Below are positions 3,461 through 10,666 of a DNA stretch of 64,000 bases, one piece after another. The stretch spans positions 124,001 to 188,000 of the forward strand of contig NZ_AQWP01000009.1 in NCBI RefSeq assembly GCF_000375585.1, in the 5' to 3' direction. The position numbers and the translations under genes are program-made. Position 1 is the stretch's first letter. The number at the start of each line of letters is the position of its first letter. The notes under the pieces are model-generated. The model made no database searches and was not told the DNA's origin. It was given only the letters and a program-made list of their open reading frames with translations. This stretch comes from Sinorhizobium meliloti 4H41 (GTDB lineage: Bacteria; Pseudomonadota; Alphaproteobacteria; Rhizobiales; Rhizobiaceae).

Positions 3461-4228
3461 TCAGGCTTCGGACGCTTCCTCGAGAGCCGGCTCGACCGGA
3501 ACCTCTTCGGATGCGCCGAGATCGCGGCCAGAGGCGCCCTGCTGACGGGCGATACCGTCAATGGCGGCGCGGGCGATGAGATCGCAGTAAAGGGCGATAG
3601 CGCGCGATGCGTCGTCGTTGCCCGGGATCGCGTAGTCGATCTGGTCCGGATCGCAATTGGAGTCGATGACGGCAACGACCGGAATGCCAAGACGCTTGGC
3701 TTCGTCGATGGCGATCGATTCCTTGTTGGTGTCGATGATGAACATCAGATCCGGGGTACCGCCCATATCGCGGATACCGCCGAGTGCGCGGTTGAGCTTC
3801 TCGCGCTCGCGCTCGAGGTTCAGGCGCTCCTTCTTCGTGAAGCCGGAAGCTTCCGAAGCCAGGATTTCATCGAGCTTGCGCAGGCGCTGGATCGAGTTGG
3901 AGATCGTCTTCCAGTTCGTCATCATGCCGCCGAGCCAGCGGGCATTGACGTAGTACTGGGCGGAACGCTTCGCAGCGTCCGCGATGATCTCGGACGCCTG
4001 GCGCTTGGTGCCGACGAAAAGCACGCGGCCGCCGCTGGCGACGGTGTCGCTGACGACCTGCAGGGCGCGCGACAGCATCGGTACGGTCTGGGCGAGATCG
4101 ATGATGTGAACGTTGTTACGGTCGCCGAAGATGTACGGCTTCATCTTCGGGTTCCAGCGGTGCGTCTGGTGACCGAAGTGGACGCCCGCCTCGAGAAGCT
4201 GGCGCATAGTGAAATCAGGCAATGCCAT
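3461..4228 (-). CDS. rpsB: 30S ribosomal protein S2
   Basis: 255 residues. The start [20 protein letters not shown] and the following [18 protein letters not shown] are the classic S2 N terminus. [12 protein letters not shown] and [19 protein letters not shown] are also diagnostic. The ATG at 4228 is preceded by AAAAGGAGACAAAGGC. An in-frame upstream extension of 33 codons is not S2 sequence. The acidic C-terminal tail ([15 protein letters not shown]) is longer than in enterobacteria. First gene of rpsB-tsf. Confidence 0.98.
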
Positions 4229-4351
4229 GCCTTTGTCTCCTTTTCCGGTTGAACCTCCGCAAGGCGTCGAGCGCACCGCAATGCGCCCACCGGCGGAACG
4301 ATCCGGATTTCTCCCGGAAAATCCCATGCCTTACGTGTGGAATGGCCAGCC

Positions 4352-4380
4352 CCTTAGCGGTAACCGGCCCGGAAATCAAG
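4352..4380 (-). promoter_or_regulatory. Putative sigma-70 promoter for rpsB-tsf
   Basis: The minus strand reads CTTGAT (4380-4375), exactly 17 nt, then CTAAGG (4357-4352). This resembles the S. meliloti housekeeping consensus CTTGAC-N17-CTATAT. It lies 124 nt upstream of the rpsB start, in the 182-bp gap after the sulfatase gene. The -35 is good and the -10 weak. Confidence 0.45.
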
Positions 4381-4410
4381 CCTTGGGGACGCTTTTTGTA
4401 TCGCGCCGGC

Positions 4411-5967
4411 TCAGGCCGCCTTCGTTCGGCACCGAGCCAGCACCTCGGCGGTGACATGTTCCGGAATGTCGCCGATTTCCGCCATGCGCGCATCGAGCTT
4501 AGCCAGCATTTCCTCGAACACAGCGGAGTAGGCCGGCTCGTTCGCCCGGTTGCGCAGCTCGAACGGGTCCTCCTCGCAATCGAACAGTTCCCATTCCGCA
4601 GCCTCGTCGCCGGAAAAGGCACCAGGCTGGCCGAGCGGATCGTTATACCAGTAGATGAGCTTGTAGCGGGCGTCGCGCACGCCGTAATGCGCGAAGGCAT
4701 TGTGGAACTCGTCCTTGTGCATCCAGTACCGGTGATAGGCGAGACCCTTATCGTCCTCGTCCGCCGTCTGCTCGATAATCGGGCGCATGCTCCTGCCCTG
4801 CATGTAATTGGGGATCGGCAGGCCCGCATAATCGAGAAAGGTCGGCGCGAAATCGACATTGGTCGCGATGTGGCCGGCTTGCGTGCCGGGCCGGATGCCT
4901 TCCGGATAGCGGATCAGGAAAGGCATCTGGAGCGATTCTTCGTACATGAAGCGCTTGTCGAACCAGCCGTGCTCGCCAAGGAAGAACCCCTGGTCGGACG
5001 TATAGATAACGATGGTGTCGTCGCGCAGGCCTTCCGCGTCGAGATAGTCGAGCAGACGGCCGACATTGTCGTCCACGGCGGCAATGGTCTGCAGGTAGCG
5101 CATCATGTAGCGCTGGTACTTGAAGAGGGCGAGTTTCCGCGGATCGGTAAAGAGATAATTCTCACCGGTGGCTCCGTCGATCAATCGCAGTTCCTGACCT
5201 TCCTCGATGTCCGGAACCTTGCGCTGGGTCCAGCCCGGCAGAAGCAGTTCGCCGATCTCGTCGCCGCCTTCGGGCTGGACGAGGCCGAGGTCCCTGTATG
5301 TCATGTCGCAGCGAATGCGCATTTTCGCAGCTGCCGCCGCTGCTGCGCGGTTGGAATAATCGTCGGAGAAAGTTTCCGGGACCGGCAGTTTGCCGTCGGC
5401 ATAGAGGTGCCTGTCGCGCGGGTGCGGCTCGAAGCTGCGATGCGGCGCCTTGTGGTGGCACATCAGGAAGAACGGCCGCTCCGGATCACGCTTGCCGAGG
5501 AAATCGAGGCATTTGTCTGTGATGATGTCGGTGGCGTAGCCTCTCTCCGTTCGCGGTCCGTTGCGGTCGATCATCACTGGATCGAAATATTCGCCCTGCC
5601 CCGGCAGTACCGACCATTCGTCAAATCCCGTCGGCTCGTGCGCCTGGCCCTCGCCCAGGTGCCACTTGCCGAAGATCGCTGTCTGATAGCCGCCCGCGCG
5701 CAGATGTTTGGCCACATTGGGGAGCCGGTTGTCGATATGGGTATCGAGCGTGGTGACCATGTTCACATGGTTGTAGGTGCCGGTCAAAATGGCGGCACGG
5801 CTGGGCGTGCAAATCGAATTGGTGACGTAGCACCGATCGAATCGCATGCCTTCGTCGGCGATGCGGTCGATATTGGGCGTGCTGTTCAGGCCCGCGCCGT
5901 AGGCGGAAATCGCCCGCGCCGCATGGTCGTCCGACATGATGAACAGAATATTGGGCTGCTTTGTCAT
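4411..5967 (-). CDS. Cytoplasmic sulfatase (Cys-type, formylglycine-dependent)
   Basis: 518-residue alkaline-phosphatase-superfamily sulfatase that should hydrolyse a sulfate ester. It starts PNILFIMSDDHAARA, with metal-binding Asp13/Asp14. CTPSR at 53-57 is the modification motif, so Cys53 becomes the catalytic formylglycine. Later motifs are GKWHLGEGQAHEP, TIVIYTSDQGFFLGEHGWFDKR and NVDFAPTFLDYAGLP. There is no signal peptide, so it should act in the cytoplasm on imported ester. It follows the binding-protein gene by 53 bp and is the last gene of the ROK/ABC operon. The substrate cannot be read from sequence. A choline-sulfatase-type substrate is possible, but the context favours an imported sulfated compound, perhaps a sugar. 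Confidence 0.9.
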   Translation of the reverse strand: MTKQPNILFIMSDDHAARAISAYGAGLNSTPNIDRIADEGMRFDRCYVTNSICTPSRAAILTGTYNHVNMVTTLDTHIDNRLPNVAKHLRAGGYQTAIFGKWHLGEGQAHEPTGFDEWSVLPGQGEYFDPVMIDRNGPRTERGYATDIITDKCLDFLGKRDPERPFFLMCHHKAPHRSFEPHPRDRHLYADGKLPVPETFSDDYSNRAAAAAAAKMRIRCDMTYRDLGLVQPEGGDEIGELLLPGWTQRKVPDIEEGQELRLIDGATGENYLFTDPRKLALFKYQRYMMRYLQTIAAVDDNVGRLLDYLDAEGLRDDTIVIYTSDQGFFLGEHGWFDKRFMYEESLQMPFLIRYPEGIRPGTQAGHIATNVDFAPTFLDYAGLPIPNYMQGRSMRPIIEQTADEDDKGLAYHRYWMHKDEFHNAFAHYGVRDARYKLIYWYNDPLGQPGAFSGDEAAEWELFDCEEDPFELRNRANEPAYSAVFEEMLAKLDARMAEIGDIPEHVTAEVLARCRTKAA

Positions 5968-6020
5968 TCTAATCTCGATGGAGAGTGCCGGCGCGACGGA
6001 GCGCGCCGGCGGGTTGGCGT

Positions 6021-7007
6021 TCAGTCGCCTGCGTAGAGGTCGGCGAGATAGTAGTCCTTCGGGTCGAGCGGGTTCTGCATCTTGCCGAAAGCGACGAACT
6101 GGTCGTTGAGACCCTTCAGCCAGTTGGCCACCGTCCCATCCCTGCTGGCAGCAACGAGCTCGGCAGTAGTCAGGAACTTGCCGTTGCGGCTTTCGACTTC
6201 AAGCGGTTCGGCCGGCACTCCGAGGAACTTGGCGGTGATCGCGACCGAGCGCGGCACGTCGGCAACGCGATAGTCGTTGGCCTCTTTCATCGTGGCGATG
6301 AATTTCCTGACCACGTCCACGTCGCCGGCTATCACCTCATTGCGGGCGACGAAGGCCGAAGGGAAAGAGTTCTCGGGATAGAAATCGTCGCTCTTGGCGA
6401 CTTCGACCAGATCCGGGACGGTCTTCTTGATGATGCCCACCAGCGGATACCAGATGCCGGCGCCGTCGATCTGCTTCGATGCAAAAGCCGAAACGACCGT
6501 CGAAGGGTCCATCTTCACCACTTCTATGTCGGAAATCGTCATGCCGGCCTTGGCAAGGCCGAGACGCAACAGCATGTCGCCCGACGTGCCTTCCGGAACG
6601 CCGACCTTCTTGCCCTTGAGGTCCGCGACGGAGTTGATGCCCTTCTGCGCGATGACGCGGTCGGACAGTCCGAGCACATTGATCGCGACGAGTTTGGCCT
6701 TGCCAGTTGCCGGAAGCCAAAGGGCGCCCGGACCGACATACCCGAAATCGAGACTGCCCGCGCCCAACGCCTGGATCTGGATCGGGCCGTTGGTGAAGAT
6801 CTTCAGGTCGGGTTCCAGGCCGTGTTTTGCCCACAGGTTCTGGTCGGTGGCGATCGCCGTCAGGCTCGTGCCGAAATAGTCGGCGATGTAACCGATCCGC
6901 ACGGGCTTCGCCTCTGCGTAAGCGGCTCGCGTGGTGGCGCCCACTATGGGGGCCGCCAGCGCACCGGCAGCGGCAACGCGGATGAAACTGCGTCGGGTAA
7001 AAGTCAC
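6021..7007 (-). CDS. ABC transporter periplasmic binding protein, SsuA/TauA (NMT1) type, Tat signal
   Basis: 328 residues from a GTG start at 7007. That start has a strong AGGAGGAAT site 3 nt upstream and overlaps the ATPase stop (GTGA). An ATG 22 codons upstream lies inside the ATPase gene and would disrupt the export signal. The N terminus [10 protein letters not shown] is a twin-arginine signal followed by a hydrophobic Ala-rich stretch and a cleavage region near AYAEA. The mature part (VRIGYIADYFGTSLTAIATD, QALGAGSLDFGYVGPG, GKKVGVPEGTSGDMLL) fits the sulfonate/sulfate-ester/nitrate-like binding family. With the neighbouring sulfatase, a sulfonate or sulfate ester ligand is likely (inference). 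Confidence 0.88.
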   Translation of the reverse strand: MTFTRRSFIRVAAAGALAAPIVGATTRAAYAEAKPVRIGYIADYFGTSLTAIATDQNLWAKHGLEPDLKIFTNGPIQIQALGAGSLDFGYVGPGALWLPATGKAKLVAINVLGLSDRVIAQKGINSVADLKGKKVGVPEGTSGDMLLRLGLAKAGMTISDIEVVKMDPSTVVSAFASKQIDGAGIWYPLVGIIKKTVPDLVEVAKSDDFYPENSFPSAFVARNEVIAGDVDVVRKFIATMKEANDYRVADVPRSVAITAKFLGVPAEPLEVESRNGKFLTTAELVAASRDGTVANWLKGLNDQFVAFGKMQNPLDPKDYYLADLYAGD

Positions 7008-7831
7008 GGCATTCCTCCTCCTTGTGATGAACTCGAACTGACCTGGGGTTTCTGATGGTAAACGGCGTGCCAAACCCGATTGCGGACCTGCGCGAATTCA
7101 GGCGATAGCCGGATCTCTTCGTTGCGCGGATAGGGCAGGTCCACGGGGATGATCTCGTGCAGGCGGCCCGGCCGCGCGGCCATCACGATGACGCGATTGG
7201 CGAGATAGACCGCCTCATCGACATCATGGGTGATGAAGATCACCGTCCGTCGCTCGCGGCTCCAGGTGTCGAGCAGCTGGTCCTGCATGTTGACGCGGGT
7301 CAATGCGTCGAGCGCGCCGAAAGGCTCGTCCATGAGGAGGATCGTCGGATTGACCGCATAGGCACGGGCGATTGCGCAGCGCTGCTTCATGCCGCCGGAC
7401 AAGGTCTTGGGCAAGGCATCGGCGAAATCCTTCAGCCCGACGAGATCGAGAAAGTGATCGGCGATGCGCCTGCGCTCGGCTGCCGGCATGTTTTTGATGC
7501 GCAGGCCGAATTCGACGTTCTGGCGAACCGTCAGCCACGGAAACAGCGCATATTGCTGGAAGATCACGCCGCGTTCGGGGCCTGGCCCGTCGACCGGCTT
7601 ACCGTCGACCAGAACACGTCCGTCCGACACCTCCGTCAGGCCGGCCGCGATATTCATGGCCGTTGACTTGCCGCAGCCGGACGGCCCGACCACCGTGACG
7701 AATTCACCCTCGCCGATGTCCAGGCTCAGCCTGTCGAGCGCGAGGACCGAGCTCTCGCCTTCGCCGAAACGGCGGGTGACGTTTTGAAATGAAATCTTCG
7801 GGTCGGAGGCCGGGTTCGGAACAGCTGTCAT
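7004..7831 (-). CDS. ABC transporter ATP-binding protein, SsuB/TauB type
   Basis: 275 residues from the ATG at 7831 ([18 protein letters not shown]). The open frame continues upstream across the permease gene, but that part is out-of-frame antisense-like sequence. Walker [10 protein letters not shown] lies near 49-57, Q-loop [11 protein letters not shown], signature LSGGMKQR, and Walker [12 protein letters not shown] with the switch His in ITHDVDEA. The length and NMT1-type partners match the sulfonate/nitrate/taurine importer ATPases. It shares 4 nt with both the permease stop (ATGA) and the binding-protein start (GTGA), indicating translational coupling. Confidence 0.93.
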
Positions 7832-8631
7832 TGCGCGCGCTCCTGCCAGCGGGTCAGACGGCGTTCCGCCGCCTGGACGATGCGATCCATGAGCAGGCCG
7901 AGAATGCCTATCGTGACGAGGCTGACGAAAATGGTGGGAAGGTCGTAATAGAGTTGCGCCTGCTGCATTCGGAAGCCGAGGCCCGATTGCGCTGCGATGA
8001 GCTCGGCTGCGACGACCGTTGCCCAGGCCGAGCCGAGCCCGATCCGGACACCGACCAGAATGAAGGGAATGGAGGCAGGGACGATCACGCGGTAGAACAG
8101 CACGCCGTCGTTGGCCCCAAGCACGCGTGCAGCGCTGATCAACGTACGGTCGACGCCGATGACACCCTGATAGGCGGCGACGACGCAGGAAAGGAACGAG
8201 GCGAGGAAAATGACGAAGACCTTCGGCGCTTCGTCGATGCCCATGGTCACGATCGCGAGCGGTATGACCGCCAGCGGCGGAATCATGCGGAAAAACTGGA
8301 TGTAGGGCTCGATCAGTGCGCGGGCGACGCGGTACCAACCCATCAGGAAGCCGACGGGAATGGCTGCCGCCACGCCGAGCAGGAAGCCGGCCAGCACGCG
8401 GCGAAGACTGGAGACGACGTCCAGCGGCAACTGGCCGTTCGCGATCAGCTCCACTGCGCGCCGGAAAACCTCGGCCGGTCCCGGCAGGATCACCAGCCCC
8501 GCCGCCGTGATGCCCCACCATACCGTGACGGCGAACACCAGGGCGATCAGGTTCAGGACGATGGGCGCCAGCTCCGCCGGCGAAAACCCGTTCCCTGTCG
8601 TTTCCTCGTCTTTGGACGTCAGAGTGCTCAA
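7828..8631 (-). CDS. ABC transporter permease, SsuC/TauC type
   Basis: 267 residues with about six hydrophobic spans. The EAA-type loop [37 protein letters not shown] is typical of BPD_transp_1 permeases of the sulfonate/nitrate/taurine family. The N-terminal 20 residues are polar and cytosolic. Its start overlaps the ROK-gene stop by 4 nt and its stop overlaps the ATPase start by 4 nt. It should form a homodimeric channel with the ATPase and the Tat-exported binding protein. Confidence 0.92.
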
Positions 8632-9743
8632 TACCGGGCTCCCGAATAGAAAAAGTGGTCGAGCGCGACCGCCGCCCCGCCGATCGCGCCCAGTTGCGAG
8701 CCAAAGCCGGTTCGTTCGAACCGAAGGATGTCGCGCATATGAGGCATGACCCGTGGCGGCAGATGTTTTCGCAGATGCGCGAACAGGCTCTCCGGCGCGT
8801 CAGCGAGGTGACCGCCGAAGACGATCAGATCGGGCGTAAGCAGACTGATTGCGATGGCGAGCGAGTCGGTCAGCCGAGCGAGTGTCGGACCCCAGACGTC
8901 CGTGTTCTCCACCTGCATCAGGAGATCGGCCGGAGCAGAGCCTTCCAGCCCCAATGCACGCATCAGGACGCGTTCGTTCACATAGCTTTCGAGACAGCCA
9001 TGGTTGCCGCAACTGCACCGTGGCCCGTTCTGTGAGATCTGGATGTGACCGAGCTCGACTGCGCCATGGCCGCCCGGCCGAAACGGTACGCCGTCGACCA
9101 CCAGCCCTGCCCCGAGACCGGAACGCAGATAGACGTAAAGCAATGCCGGGACCCCGCGGCCGAGACCGAAGCGCGCCTCCGCGACCGCCATTGCCGTAAC
9201 GCTATGCTCCAGCACCACCGTCAGGCCCGTGCGTCGCTCCAGCATGCCCGCCAGAGGCAGGTTGCGCCAGCCGGTATTGATCGAAGCCAGGATGGTGCGC
9301 TGGCCGGCATCGACGGGTCCCGGCACTCCCACTCCGACGCCGAGCAGATGGTCTGTGCGCGCGAGAAGCTTCAGCTTCTCTATTTCGTCCGCGATCCGCG
9401 CCGTCACGGCCTCCGGCGAGGTGTCCGGCAGCGCGAATTCGAACGAAGCGGCCGCTTTCGCCGAACCCAGGAGATCCGTGACCGTCAGTTGGACGAGCCC
9501 GGCACCGATATGCACGCCGGCAACGTGATGAGCGTTCGGCAGGAGCCGGATCGCCAGTCCCGGCCGCCCCACCCCGCTGCTTGCCGCCGGCTCCACCTCG
9601 GCGACGGAGCCGTCGGCGAGGAGCTGCGCCGTCACATGGGTAAGGGTCGTCGCGGACAGCCCGGTGCGGCGCGCAAGGATGGCGCGTGATTGGGGCCCTT
9701 CGTCGCGAAGGATGCGCAGGACCTGGCCGTGATGCACACCCAC
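8628..9743 (-). CDS. ROK-family transcriptional repressor (NagC/XylR type)
   Basis: 371 residues from a GTG start at 9743, with an AAGGGGG site upstream. The N-terminal winged helix-turn-helix spans about residues 5-65 ([27 protein letters not shown]), followed by a sugar-kinase-fold ROK domain. The ROK zinc motif is intact: LGH near 231-233 and [11 protein letters not shown] with Cys243, 245 and 250. The kinase catalytic Asp is gone: the usual E-N-D-x-N becomes E-H-S-V-T (179-183), and the DIG ATP motif reads HIG (78-80). It should be a ligand-sensing regulator, not a kinase. First gene of the sulfatase/ABC operon. Confidence 0.9.
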
Positions 9744-9762
9744 TCTTCGCCCCCCTTGGCCG

Positions 9763-9802
9763 TTTATTTTCTCAACTTTAGAAAATAAATGGATCCTGTC
9801 AA
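9763..9802 (-). promoter_or_regulatory. Promoter and overlapping operator of the ROK-ABC-sulfatase operon
   Basis: On the minus strand TTGACA (9802-9797), a 16-nt spacer and TAAAGT (9780-9775) form a good sigma-70 promoter about 30 nt before the GTG start. A perfect 10-bp inverted repeat, TTTATTTTCT / AGAAAATAAA with a 7-nt centre (9763-9789), covers the -10 box. AT-rich inverted repeats of this shape are known for NagC/XylR-type ROK repressors. Autorepression is inferred. Confidence 0.7.
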
Positions 9803-9847
9803 TAGGAGCAGGTTGCGGTCACTTTCGAAAATCGCTTCTGCGGTTGT

Positions 9848-10666
9848 CTATTTGCACTCTTCGCTATTGAAGACCTCGAGCTTTGCGAGCTTTCCGCTCA
9901 GGACGAAGTCACCGTAGTCCATGGTGAGATCCCGCGTCACGCCGTTCTCGTAGAGCTTGAACGCCATGCGGTAGACGGGCAGCGCGTCGCCGTTCGCTTC
10001 GTCGTTGAAATAGGTGATCGTCACCGGCCAATAGTTCTCGCCCGCAAGCTCTCCGGCCTTGCCGACATCCGCATCGTCAGGAGCGGGCTTGCGCGGCTTG
10101 CCCACGAAGGTCGAGGTAATCAGCGTCTTGTCGCCCGAATCGGAACCATCGAAAATACGCGCCTCGAAAAAGGTCTCTCCTTTTTTCGCACGTTCGATCA
10201 CTTCGAGCATGTGTTCTGTCGGAAACCGGCTGGCCGCAAGCGCCACCTGGCGCTTGTCGGGGGCGGTCAGCTCGACCTTGACGCCGGACTTATCGTCATG
10301 CGCGCTTCCGCGCACCTCCTTGTCCAGCTTCTCATCGGTAAAGGAGCGGGTGAGGAAACGGAAATTGCCGTTCTTCATGTCCTCATAGGTGGTGGTCTGC
10401 TGATCGGTTAGGCGAACCTCGTCACCCGTATCGACCTGGGTGACGAAGCGGAAGCTGACGGTATAGCCTTCGCAGGAGGAGCCGTTGAACTCATAGACCA
10501 TGCGGCCATACATGCCGGAGATGCCGGACCGCTCGGAGGCGTCCTTCAATTCCAGATCGTAGACGGCGCGATGGGGAACGAGAGCAGTCGCCTGTGCCGC
10601 GCCCGCCGTCATGACCACGACACAGACGCTTCCCAGAGTGACGAGACCGAAGCCTTTACGAAACAT
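9848..10666 (-). CDS. eipB: Cell envelope integrity protein, EipB/DUF1849 family
   Basis: 272 residues. The ATG at 10666 follows AACAGGAGGAAACGG; the open frame goes 15 codons further without support. An Sec signal peptide lies at 1-27 (hydrophobic core, cleavage near AQATA). The mature protein opens LVPHRAVYDLEL, and two cysteines remain (Cys65 in NGSSCEGY and Cys271 at the C terminus). This matches the conserved disulfide of Brucella EipB, a periplasmic beta-spiral protein needed for envelope integrity. It faces the ROK operon promoter region downstream and is divergent from ridA. The function is from family knowledge. Confidence 0.87.
   Translation of the reverse strand: MFRKGFGLVTLGSVCVVVMTAGAAQATALVPHRAVYDLELKDASERSGISGMYGRMVYEFNGSSCEGYTVSFRFVTQVDTGDEVRLTDQQTTTYEDMKNGNFRFLTRSFTDEKLDKEVRGSAHDDKSGVKVELTAPDKRQVALAASRFPTEHMLEVIERAKKGETFFEARIFDGSDSGDKTLITSTFVGKPRKPAPDDADVGKAGELAGENYWPVTITYFNDEANGDALPVYRMAFKLYENGVTRDLTMDYGDFVLSGKLAKLEVFNSEECK

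Follow-up and report, generated by a model that had tools for sequence, protein, structure and literature searches.

Why should a repressor of the ROK family share an operon with an ATP-binding cassette (ABC) transporter of the SsuABC type and a sulfatase, and what would such an operon take up? The question is raised by five minus-strand genes (9743-4411) that form one unit in a 64,000-nucleotide stretch of the Sinorhizobium meliloti 4H41 genome (contig NZ_AQWP01000009.1, positions 124,001 to 188,000), here called the window. They encode a ROK repressor, a permease, an ATPase, an SsuA-family binding protein and a sulfatase. With a probability of about 0.7, we think that the cassette imports a 6-O-sulfated sugar or glycoside intact, probably one of gluco type, and removes its sulfate in the cytoplasm, with the ROK protein in control. 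This reading is built on sequence comparison.

The gene content and strand had been described in a first-pass annotation made from the DNA letters alone. The coordinates and the Pfam matches, which exceed the family cut-offs for all five proteins, agree with it. The junction sequences likewise reproduce the described packing, with 4-nt overlaps at the first three junctions (TTGA, ATGA and GTGA) and a 53-bp gap between the binding-protein and sulfatase genes. The annotated span of 4411-9802 is correct in gene content, but not in placing the ROK start at 9802: the gene begins at 9743, and 9744-9802 are promoter and operator.

Linkage of the transporter clade to sulfatases

A scan of genome contigs with the sulfatase as the query identified 95 relatives, of which 80 were kept as named loci. 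Importer types around them were assigned by blastp to representatives, and the representatives used were scanned with Pfam. Cassettes of this kind are also present in other Rhizobiales and in Rhodobacterales. Relatives of the ROK protein, the permease and the binding protein are found within 6 kb of the sulfatase at 19 of the 80 loci, and an SsuABC-type transporter at 22. Another 22 loci, without the SsuABC type, have a carbohydrate-type SBP_bac_1 binding protein at the same distance. Mapping the SsuABC label onto a tree of the 81 sulfatases requires 8 changes (mean for shuffled labels, 20.2), and well-supported branches force at least 7 of them. It seems that different importers have repeatedly replaced one another around a single sulfatase, though some of the changes may be losses.

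With the binding protein alone as the query, matches (E 1e-70) were obtained in 9 genomes out of 397 in the order. Besides the window's own genome these are 8, and each of the 8 has a sulfatase close by. Five of these loci (L106, L107, L108, L112, L113) have the same kind of sulfatase and the cassette order. The open reading frame (ORF) picker, which hid some genes under spurious frames, did not list an ATPase in L112 or a permease in L113; the gaps leave room for both. The recurrence of ROK protein, transporter and sulfatase, which the first-pass annotation proposed to look for, is thus seen with either query. The remaining three loci (L109, L110, L111) carry other sulfatases (24-32 percent identical), one of them with a choline-sulfatase C-terminal domain. 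LacI-type regulators are present in L109 and L110, and a formylglycine-generating enzyme (FGE) in L111. The transporters of these three loci are possible further sulfate-ester importers.

As a control for the linkage, SsuA-family matches of at least 60 bits (56 of 120) were taken from nine genomes, with G532 left out. A sulfatase lies within 5 kb of 9 of 9 members of the window binding-protein clade, versus 1 of 47 other SsuA-family matches (2 of 47 at 10 kb). Without G000, the window's own genome, and G064, which were not picked by the binding protein, the counts are 7/7 versus 0/34 (Fisher 4.4e-8). A class-wide search with the binding protein at E 1e-60 found it in the own genome alone among 385, and the clade is therefore rare in that class-wide sample.

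The binding protein passes the TIGR01728 SsuA_fam model (237.2 versus a cut-off of 163.5 bits), and its assignment to the SsuA type is thus confirmed. The permease and ATPase score below the curated NCBIfam cut-offs (SsuC, 124.5 versus 347 bits; sulfonate ATPase, 187.5 versus 395 bits), and the permease is also below the TauC cut-off. By the SsuC and ATPase scores, the system is not an aliphatic sulfonate SsuABC proper. Among solved structures, the AlphaFold model of the binding protein (predicted local distance difference test score, pLDDT, 88.9) is closest to SsuA and TauA, with thiamine-precursor and nitrate binders ranking lower. Thiamine precursors and nitrate, which the first-pass annotation had named as ligands that would speak against its interpretation, are thereby disfavoured.

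Substrate and location of the sulfatase

The sulfatase signature CTPSR is present in 81 of 81 aligned rows, and the enzyme combines the CxPSR motif and the PF00884 match of the S1 family. Its eight best solved matches are all named sulfatases, the first being 5g2v, an N-acetylglucosamine-6-sulfatase (E 4.1e-123). This entry fits the S1_11 GlcNAc-6-sulfatase BT4656, in agreement with Ser77 and the residue numbers. In the alignment, C53 of the window protein corresponds to Ser77 (numbering as in an excerpt of PMC7897442), and D337, R339 and H422 correspond to D361, R363 and H447. According to part of the text of PMC6994673, D361 and R363 of BT4656 bind O4 of the sugar and H447 binds O3; the S1_11 triad is also described in an excerpt of PMC10154612. 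All three residues, and with them the S1_11 triad, are invariant in the 81 rows. As judged by eye, the window sulfatase has the RYWMH motif and the longer loop after YND of the exo-L-galactose-6-sulfatase 7lha, unlike BT4656, and an N-acetyl group on the substrate is therefore not assured. The sulfatase model has a mean pLDDT of 82.6, with values below 50 for residues 329-345, which include two of the triad residues, so no geometry was taken from it. Choline sulfate, another substrate that had been considered adverse to the first interpretation, is disfavoured by the score for choline-sulfatase TIGR03417, 153.7 versus a cut-off of 433.45 bits.

The neighbourhoods of related sulfatases contain further genes that point to a sugar. 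In L084, genes for a 2-hydroxyacid dehydrogenase and a Gfo/Idh/MocA protein are located between the binding-protein and sulfatase genes, and the same pair is present in L080 and L091. Relatives of glycoside hydrolase (GH) families GH3, GH1 or GH13 occur near the sulfatase in 8 of the 80 loci. In view of the triad, the match to 5g2v, and the glycoside-hydrolase and sugar-gene neighbours, a 6-O-sulfated gluco-type sugar or glycoside is the substrate that we infer and favour.

In the marine relatives L062 and L071, the sulfatase is found behind a MalK-type importer, together with GH13 and GH1 glycosidases, in what looks like a sulfated-glycoside operon.

FGE relatives are near the sulfatase in 14 of the 80 loci. 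In L112 (683-4307) and L113 (5107-8652), the cassette is extended, the sulfatase gene being followed by genes for an FGE and a TauE-type exporter. TauE relatives are near the sulfatase in L039 and L065 as well; TauE is near in 2 of the 80 loci of the neighbourhood count, and absent from the window's cassette. Pfam names TauE a sulfite exporter. Its presence beside a sulfatase would suggest disposal of a surplus sulfur anion, and hence use of the substrate as a carbon source, but this is only a hint.

The window sulfatase begins MTKQPNILF, which leaves no space for a signal peptide. Together with CTPSR, this bears out the earlier description of a formylglycine-type sulfatase without a signal peptide. 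At most 8 residues precede the conserved start in 51 of the 81 rows (including L089, cut by its contig), and there is thus no room for a signal peptide in these either. Where the open frame is longer (30 rows), a start codon near the conserved stretch is usual, as judged by eye. Peak 12-residue mean hydropathy of the upstream frame is 1.97 in L041, 1.78 in L031, and below 1.3 in the others. The genome has one FGE gene, which is enough for making formylglycine from Cys. The original proposal, that a sulfate ester is imported intact and desulfated inside the cell, is supported by the linkage of the clade to sulfatases, the missing signal peptide, and the sugar importers and some glycoside hydrolases near relatives.

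Regulation and the genomic islet

ROK ligands are mostly sugars. The kinase Asp of the family is replaced by Ser181 in the window protein and by Asn in 24 others, and Asp is found in none of the 25 aligned rows. The ExGH and zinc (CxCGxxGC) motifs are kept in 24 of the 25, L088 being the exception. The roles of all these residues are presumably those generally ascribed to them in the ROK family. The nearest solved chains, 3bp8 and 1z6r, are Mlc/NagC-like repressors. The Pfam HTH_24 match of 20.1 bits is slightly under the cut-off of 21.9, and the helix-turn-helix (HTH) region aligns with Mlc from residue 5. The protein has the HTH, ExGH and zinc motif of ROK repressors and lacks the catalytic Asp of ROK kinases, just as its annotation as a kinase-dead repressor implied.

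Approximately 60 bp before the ROK start carry control elements that the first-pass annotation did not include (Table 1). A -10-like TAAAGT at 9780-9775 lies inside the candidate operator. With its 16-nt spacer from TTGACA, it gives 10 of 12 matches in the promoter scan. Promoter-like sites in the scanned region number 2, versus 1.2 expected, so the promoter match alone is weak. The operator candidate is a perfect 10-7-10 palindrome, TTTATTTTCT-7-AGAAAATAAA, downstream of TTGACA and over the -10-like hexamer. It is the sole match in the window at up to 3 mismatches, with none in 100 shuffles. Arms covary in relatives, reading TTATTTTC/GAAAATAA in L014 (Sinorhizobium medicae USDA1037), TTAATTTC/GAAATTAA in L016-L019, and TTACTTTC/GAAAGTAA in L024. 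By eye, 12 of 25 upstream regions bear a palindrome of the window type (imperfect in L020 and L090). The other 13 are mixed, several of them (e.g. L038, L075, L106, L107 and L108) with other A/T-rich near-palindromes; a repeat-finding script detected no repeat upstream in L023, L025, L037, L060 and L090. The palindrome and its covariation are as expected if a ROK repressor acts locally on its own operon. A sugar as the ligand type, and control by sugar, as had been suggested, are consistent with this operator and with the S1_11 triad.

The core palindrome has one perfect site in the own genome, and its reversed control pattern has no match there. A genome-wide ROK regulon was considered and rejected, since the core at up to 2 mismatches occurs in only three places; no wider regulon is claimed. 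The second place, in C29 (1 mismatch), is by coordinate inside a called ORF. The third (G000:C12:27127-27151; L096, L115), with 2 mismatches, is located upstream of another ROK-like gene.

The gap between the binding-protein and sulfatase genes contains a GC stem-loop (-23.3 kcal/mol, z -3.14 in the window). A stem-loop is present in the folds of all 24 gaps examined, taken from 28 cassette rows with L025, L080, L084 and L088 left out, and its sequence differs among lineages. The gap fold has z below -2 in 14 of the 24 (median -2.9), a rough count because five rows (L106, L107, L108, L112 and L113) extend into the sulfatase frame as called, and because long gaps were trimmed to 100 nt. An intrinsic terminator at this hairpin was rejected: it has no T run in the window, and terminator-like sites number 4, versus 4.8 in shuffles, with none in the gap. 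Since a T run is missing, full termination is the less likely role for the stem-loop, which more probably shields the upstream mRNA or attenuates transcription in part.

Table 1. Features of the cassette and its surroundings (window coordinates)
Feature	Position	Strand	Basis
ROK-family repressor without kinase Asp	8628..9743	-	start GTG; PF00480 158.7 bits; motif alignment of 25 rows
SsuC/TauC-like permease	7828..8631	-	start TTG; BPD_transp_1 PF00528 93.8 bits
SsuB/TauB-like ATPase	7004..7831	-	start ATG; ABC_tran PF00005 110.7 bits
SsuA-family substrate-binding protein, twin-arginine signal	6021..7007	-	start GTG; NMT1 61.7 bits; TIGR01728 237.2 bits
Cys-type sulfatase, S1_11-like, predicted cytoplasmic	4411..5967	-	start ATG; PF00884 183.8, PF16347 154.4 bits
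Probable ROK operator, perfect inverted repeat	9763..9789	-	palindrome scans; compensatory arm changes
-35-like box TTGACA of operon promoter	9797..9802	-	promoter scan
GC-rich stem-loop, binding protein-sulfatase gap	5987..6010	-	folding; 9-bp perfect stem, 6-nt loop
Entire islet, from rpsB to eipB (approximate edges)	4384..9843	.	DNA similarity breakpoints

The cassette is patchily distributed among close relatives. The gene eipB was found in 10 of 11 same-genus genomes searched, and directly adjoins rpsB in all 10; the eleventh genome, without an eipB match, is 70 percent complete. DNA similarity to these 10 genomes ends at 4380-4383 and restarts at 9836-9848, so the extra unit comprises the five genes, their promoter and little else. 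The unit looks like an islet, and gain is the simplest reading of its presence and absence, the direction being judged without a tree. S. medicae USDA1037 has the cassette at the same site, with 83 percent DNA identity, compared to 91 and 88 percent in the flanks. At E 1e-60, the sulfatase was found in 6 of 199 family genomes (counting the own one), but in 0 of the 2 other same-genus genomes of the sample. The islet is flanked by an eipB-like gene on one side and by rpsB-tsf-pyrH-frr on the other, on the same strand. The scan found no minus-strand terminator-like site between the sulfatase gene and rpsB (window 4200-4411), so that read-through into rpsB is possible.

Taken together, the islet is most likely an operon, complete in itself, for taking up a sulfated sugar or a small glycoside. 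In the periplasm, the Tat-exported (twin-arginine translocation) binding protein of SsuA type would capture the sulfate ester; the ABC transporter of SsuBC type would import it intact, and the cytoplasmic S1_11-type formylglycine sulfatase would strip the sulfate. The ROK protein, as a sugar sensor without the kinase Asp, would bind the promoter-overlapping palindrome and repress until it is bound by the imported sugar, with or without its sulfate. The stem-loop that follows the binding-protein gene would probably keep the binding protein and transporter above the level of the sulfatase, by mRNA protection or partial attenuation. More tentatively, and with somewhat less than even odds, the cassette may be a module that moves horizontally. 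An importer of the SsuABC type, which in other settings is a sulfonate system, would have become specialized in it for carrying 6-O-sulfated sugars as a carbon source, with cytoplasmic desulfation and ROK sensing. Some lineages would then have their own FGE and a TauE-type exporter for the surplus sulfur anion, and SsuABC-, sugar- and oligopeptide-type importers would have been swapped around one sulfatase.

Competing explanations and known systems

Several observations weigh against the import and cytoplasmic desulfation of a sulfated sugar. At 36 of the 80 loci, neither an SsuABC-type nor an SBP_bac_1-type importer lies within 6 kb of the sulfatase; importers of Opp or MalK type are present at a few of them. 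The fold of the binding protein is of the sulfonate/NMT1 type and belongs to no sugar-binding family, and the clade may accept other sulfate esters, given the other sulfatases at three of the eight loci. No sugar-catabolic gene was detected in the window's cassette by the Pfam scan, and the sugar preference of ROK proteins is a generality about the family. The sulfatases of L041 and L031, with a moderately hydrophobic upstream stretch, could conceivably be exported. Finally, the N-terminus of the window binding protein fits a Tat signal by eye, as annotated, but the N-terminal pair in 21 aligned relatives is RR in 13 and KR in 8, so that Tat export is not general in the clade.

The main rival holds that the operon scavenges sulfur from a broad range of aryl or alkyl sulfate esters, that it is an ats-type operon in function, and that the ROK ligand merely reports the glycone or aglycone. 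The SsuA-type family of the transporter, the three relatives linked to other sulfatases, and the Pseudomonas ats systems, which pair a similar transporter with sulfatases, are in its favour. It is nevertheless unlikely, because the sugar triad does not vary in any row, relatives of the same sulfatase adjoin sugar importers, and the ROK-type palindrome is local. The TauE-type exporters in L112, L113, L039 and L065 also suggest a surplus of the sulfur anion, although the window's cassette has none. Transporter and sulfatase might alternatively share an operon yet serve different molecules, the transporter taking up a sulfonate or other NMT1-type ligand. This would agree with the SsuA- and TauA-like fold, and with the gap and stem-loop that part the transporter from the sulfatase. 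However, the clade is linked to sulfatases in all eight genomes picked by the binding protein, even if the sulfatase type varies, and the Pfam scan found no monooxygenase among the five cassette genes, which makes this explanation quite improbable. Still harder to believe is an operon that serves phosphorus, whose enzyme would hydrolyse phosphonate monoesters or phosphodiesters and belong to the same superfamily. There is weak overlap with Phosphodiest PF01663 and the PehA model, but the PehA score is 146.6 versus a cut-off of 900 bits, and the best solved matches are sulfatases by name. Import of a 6-O-sulfated sugar or glycoside followed by cytoplasmic desulfation is therefore the reading that we retain.

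Sulfated sugars are mostly thought to be desulfated extracellularly or in the periplasm. For gut Bacteroidetes, desulfation outside the cell or in the periplasm is described in an excerpt of PMC10154612. The abstract of PMC4267179 counts sulfate esters among the major forms of organic sulfur in soil. If the proposed reading is true, rhizobia and marine Alphaproteobacteria would have a compact route through the cytoplasm for the direct use of sulfated sugars, and some transporters annotated as sulfonate or nitrate carriers would need renaming. The genes, the probable operator and the binding protein are open to assay at once. The parts of the cassette are of known kinds. No description of the five-gene make-up was seen among the papers listed by the literature searches, judged by title and start of abstract, most subscription journals being outside the scope.

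Among known systems, Pseudomonas atsRBC with the arylsulfatase AtsA also links an SsuABC-like sulfate-ester importer to a cytoplasmic Cys-type sulfatase. Compared by description and not by sequence, the window differs from it in the ROK protein with a local palindrome, the carbohydrate-type S1_11-like sulfatase, and the alphaproteobacterial islet. E. coli SsuABC and TauABC are similar in the families of the binding protein, permease and ATPase, and in the fold of the binding protein. In contrast to these systems, which are linked to sulfonate oxygenases, the window type is tied to sulfatases and scores below the SsuC and TauC cut-offs. Mlc and NagC share with the ROK protein the HTH, ExGH and zinc motif, and their operators are A/T-rich palindromes resembling the window operator. 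They differ in that ROK proteins of the window type have Ser or Asn for the kinase Asp, and in that the window's genome has a single perfect site. The S1_11 GlcNAc-6-O-sulfatases BT4656 and BT3177, and also 7lha, resemble the window sulfatase in sequence family and in the D/R/H triad. BT4656 differs in having Ser77 (PMC7897442, in part) at the position of Cys53. BT3177 has a lipoprotein signal, and the S1 enzymes of the heparin pathway are periplasmic, as stated in an excerpt of PMC10154612, whereas the window sulfatase is predicted to be cytoplasmic and would be fed by an ABC importer.

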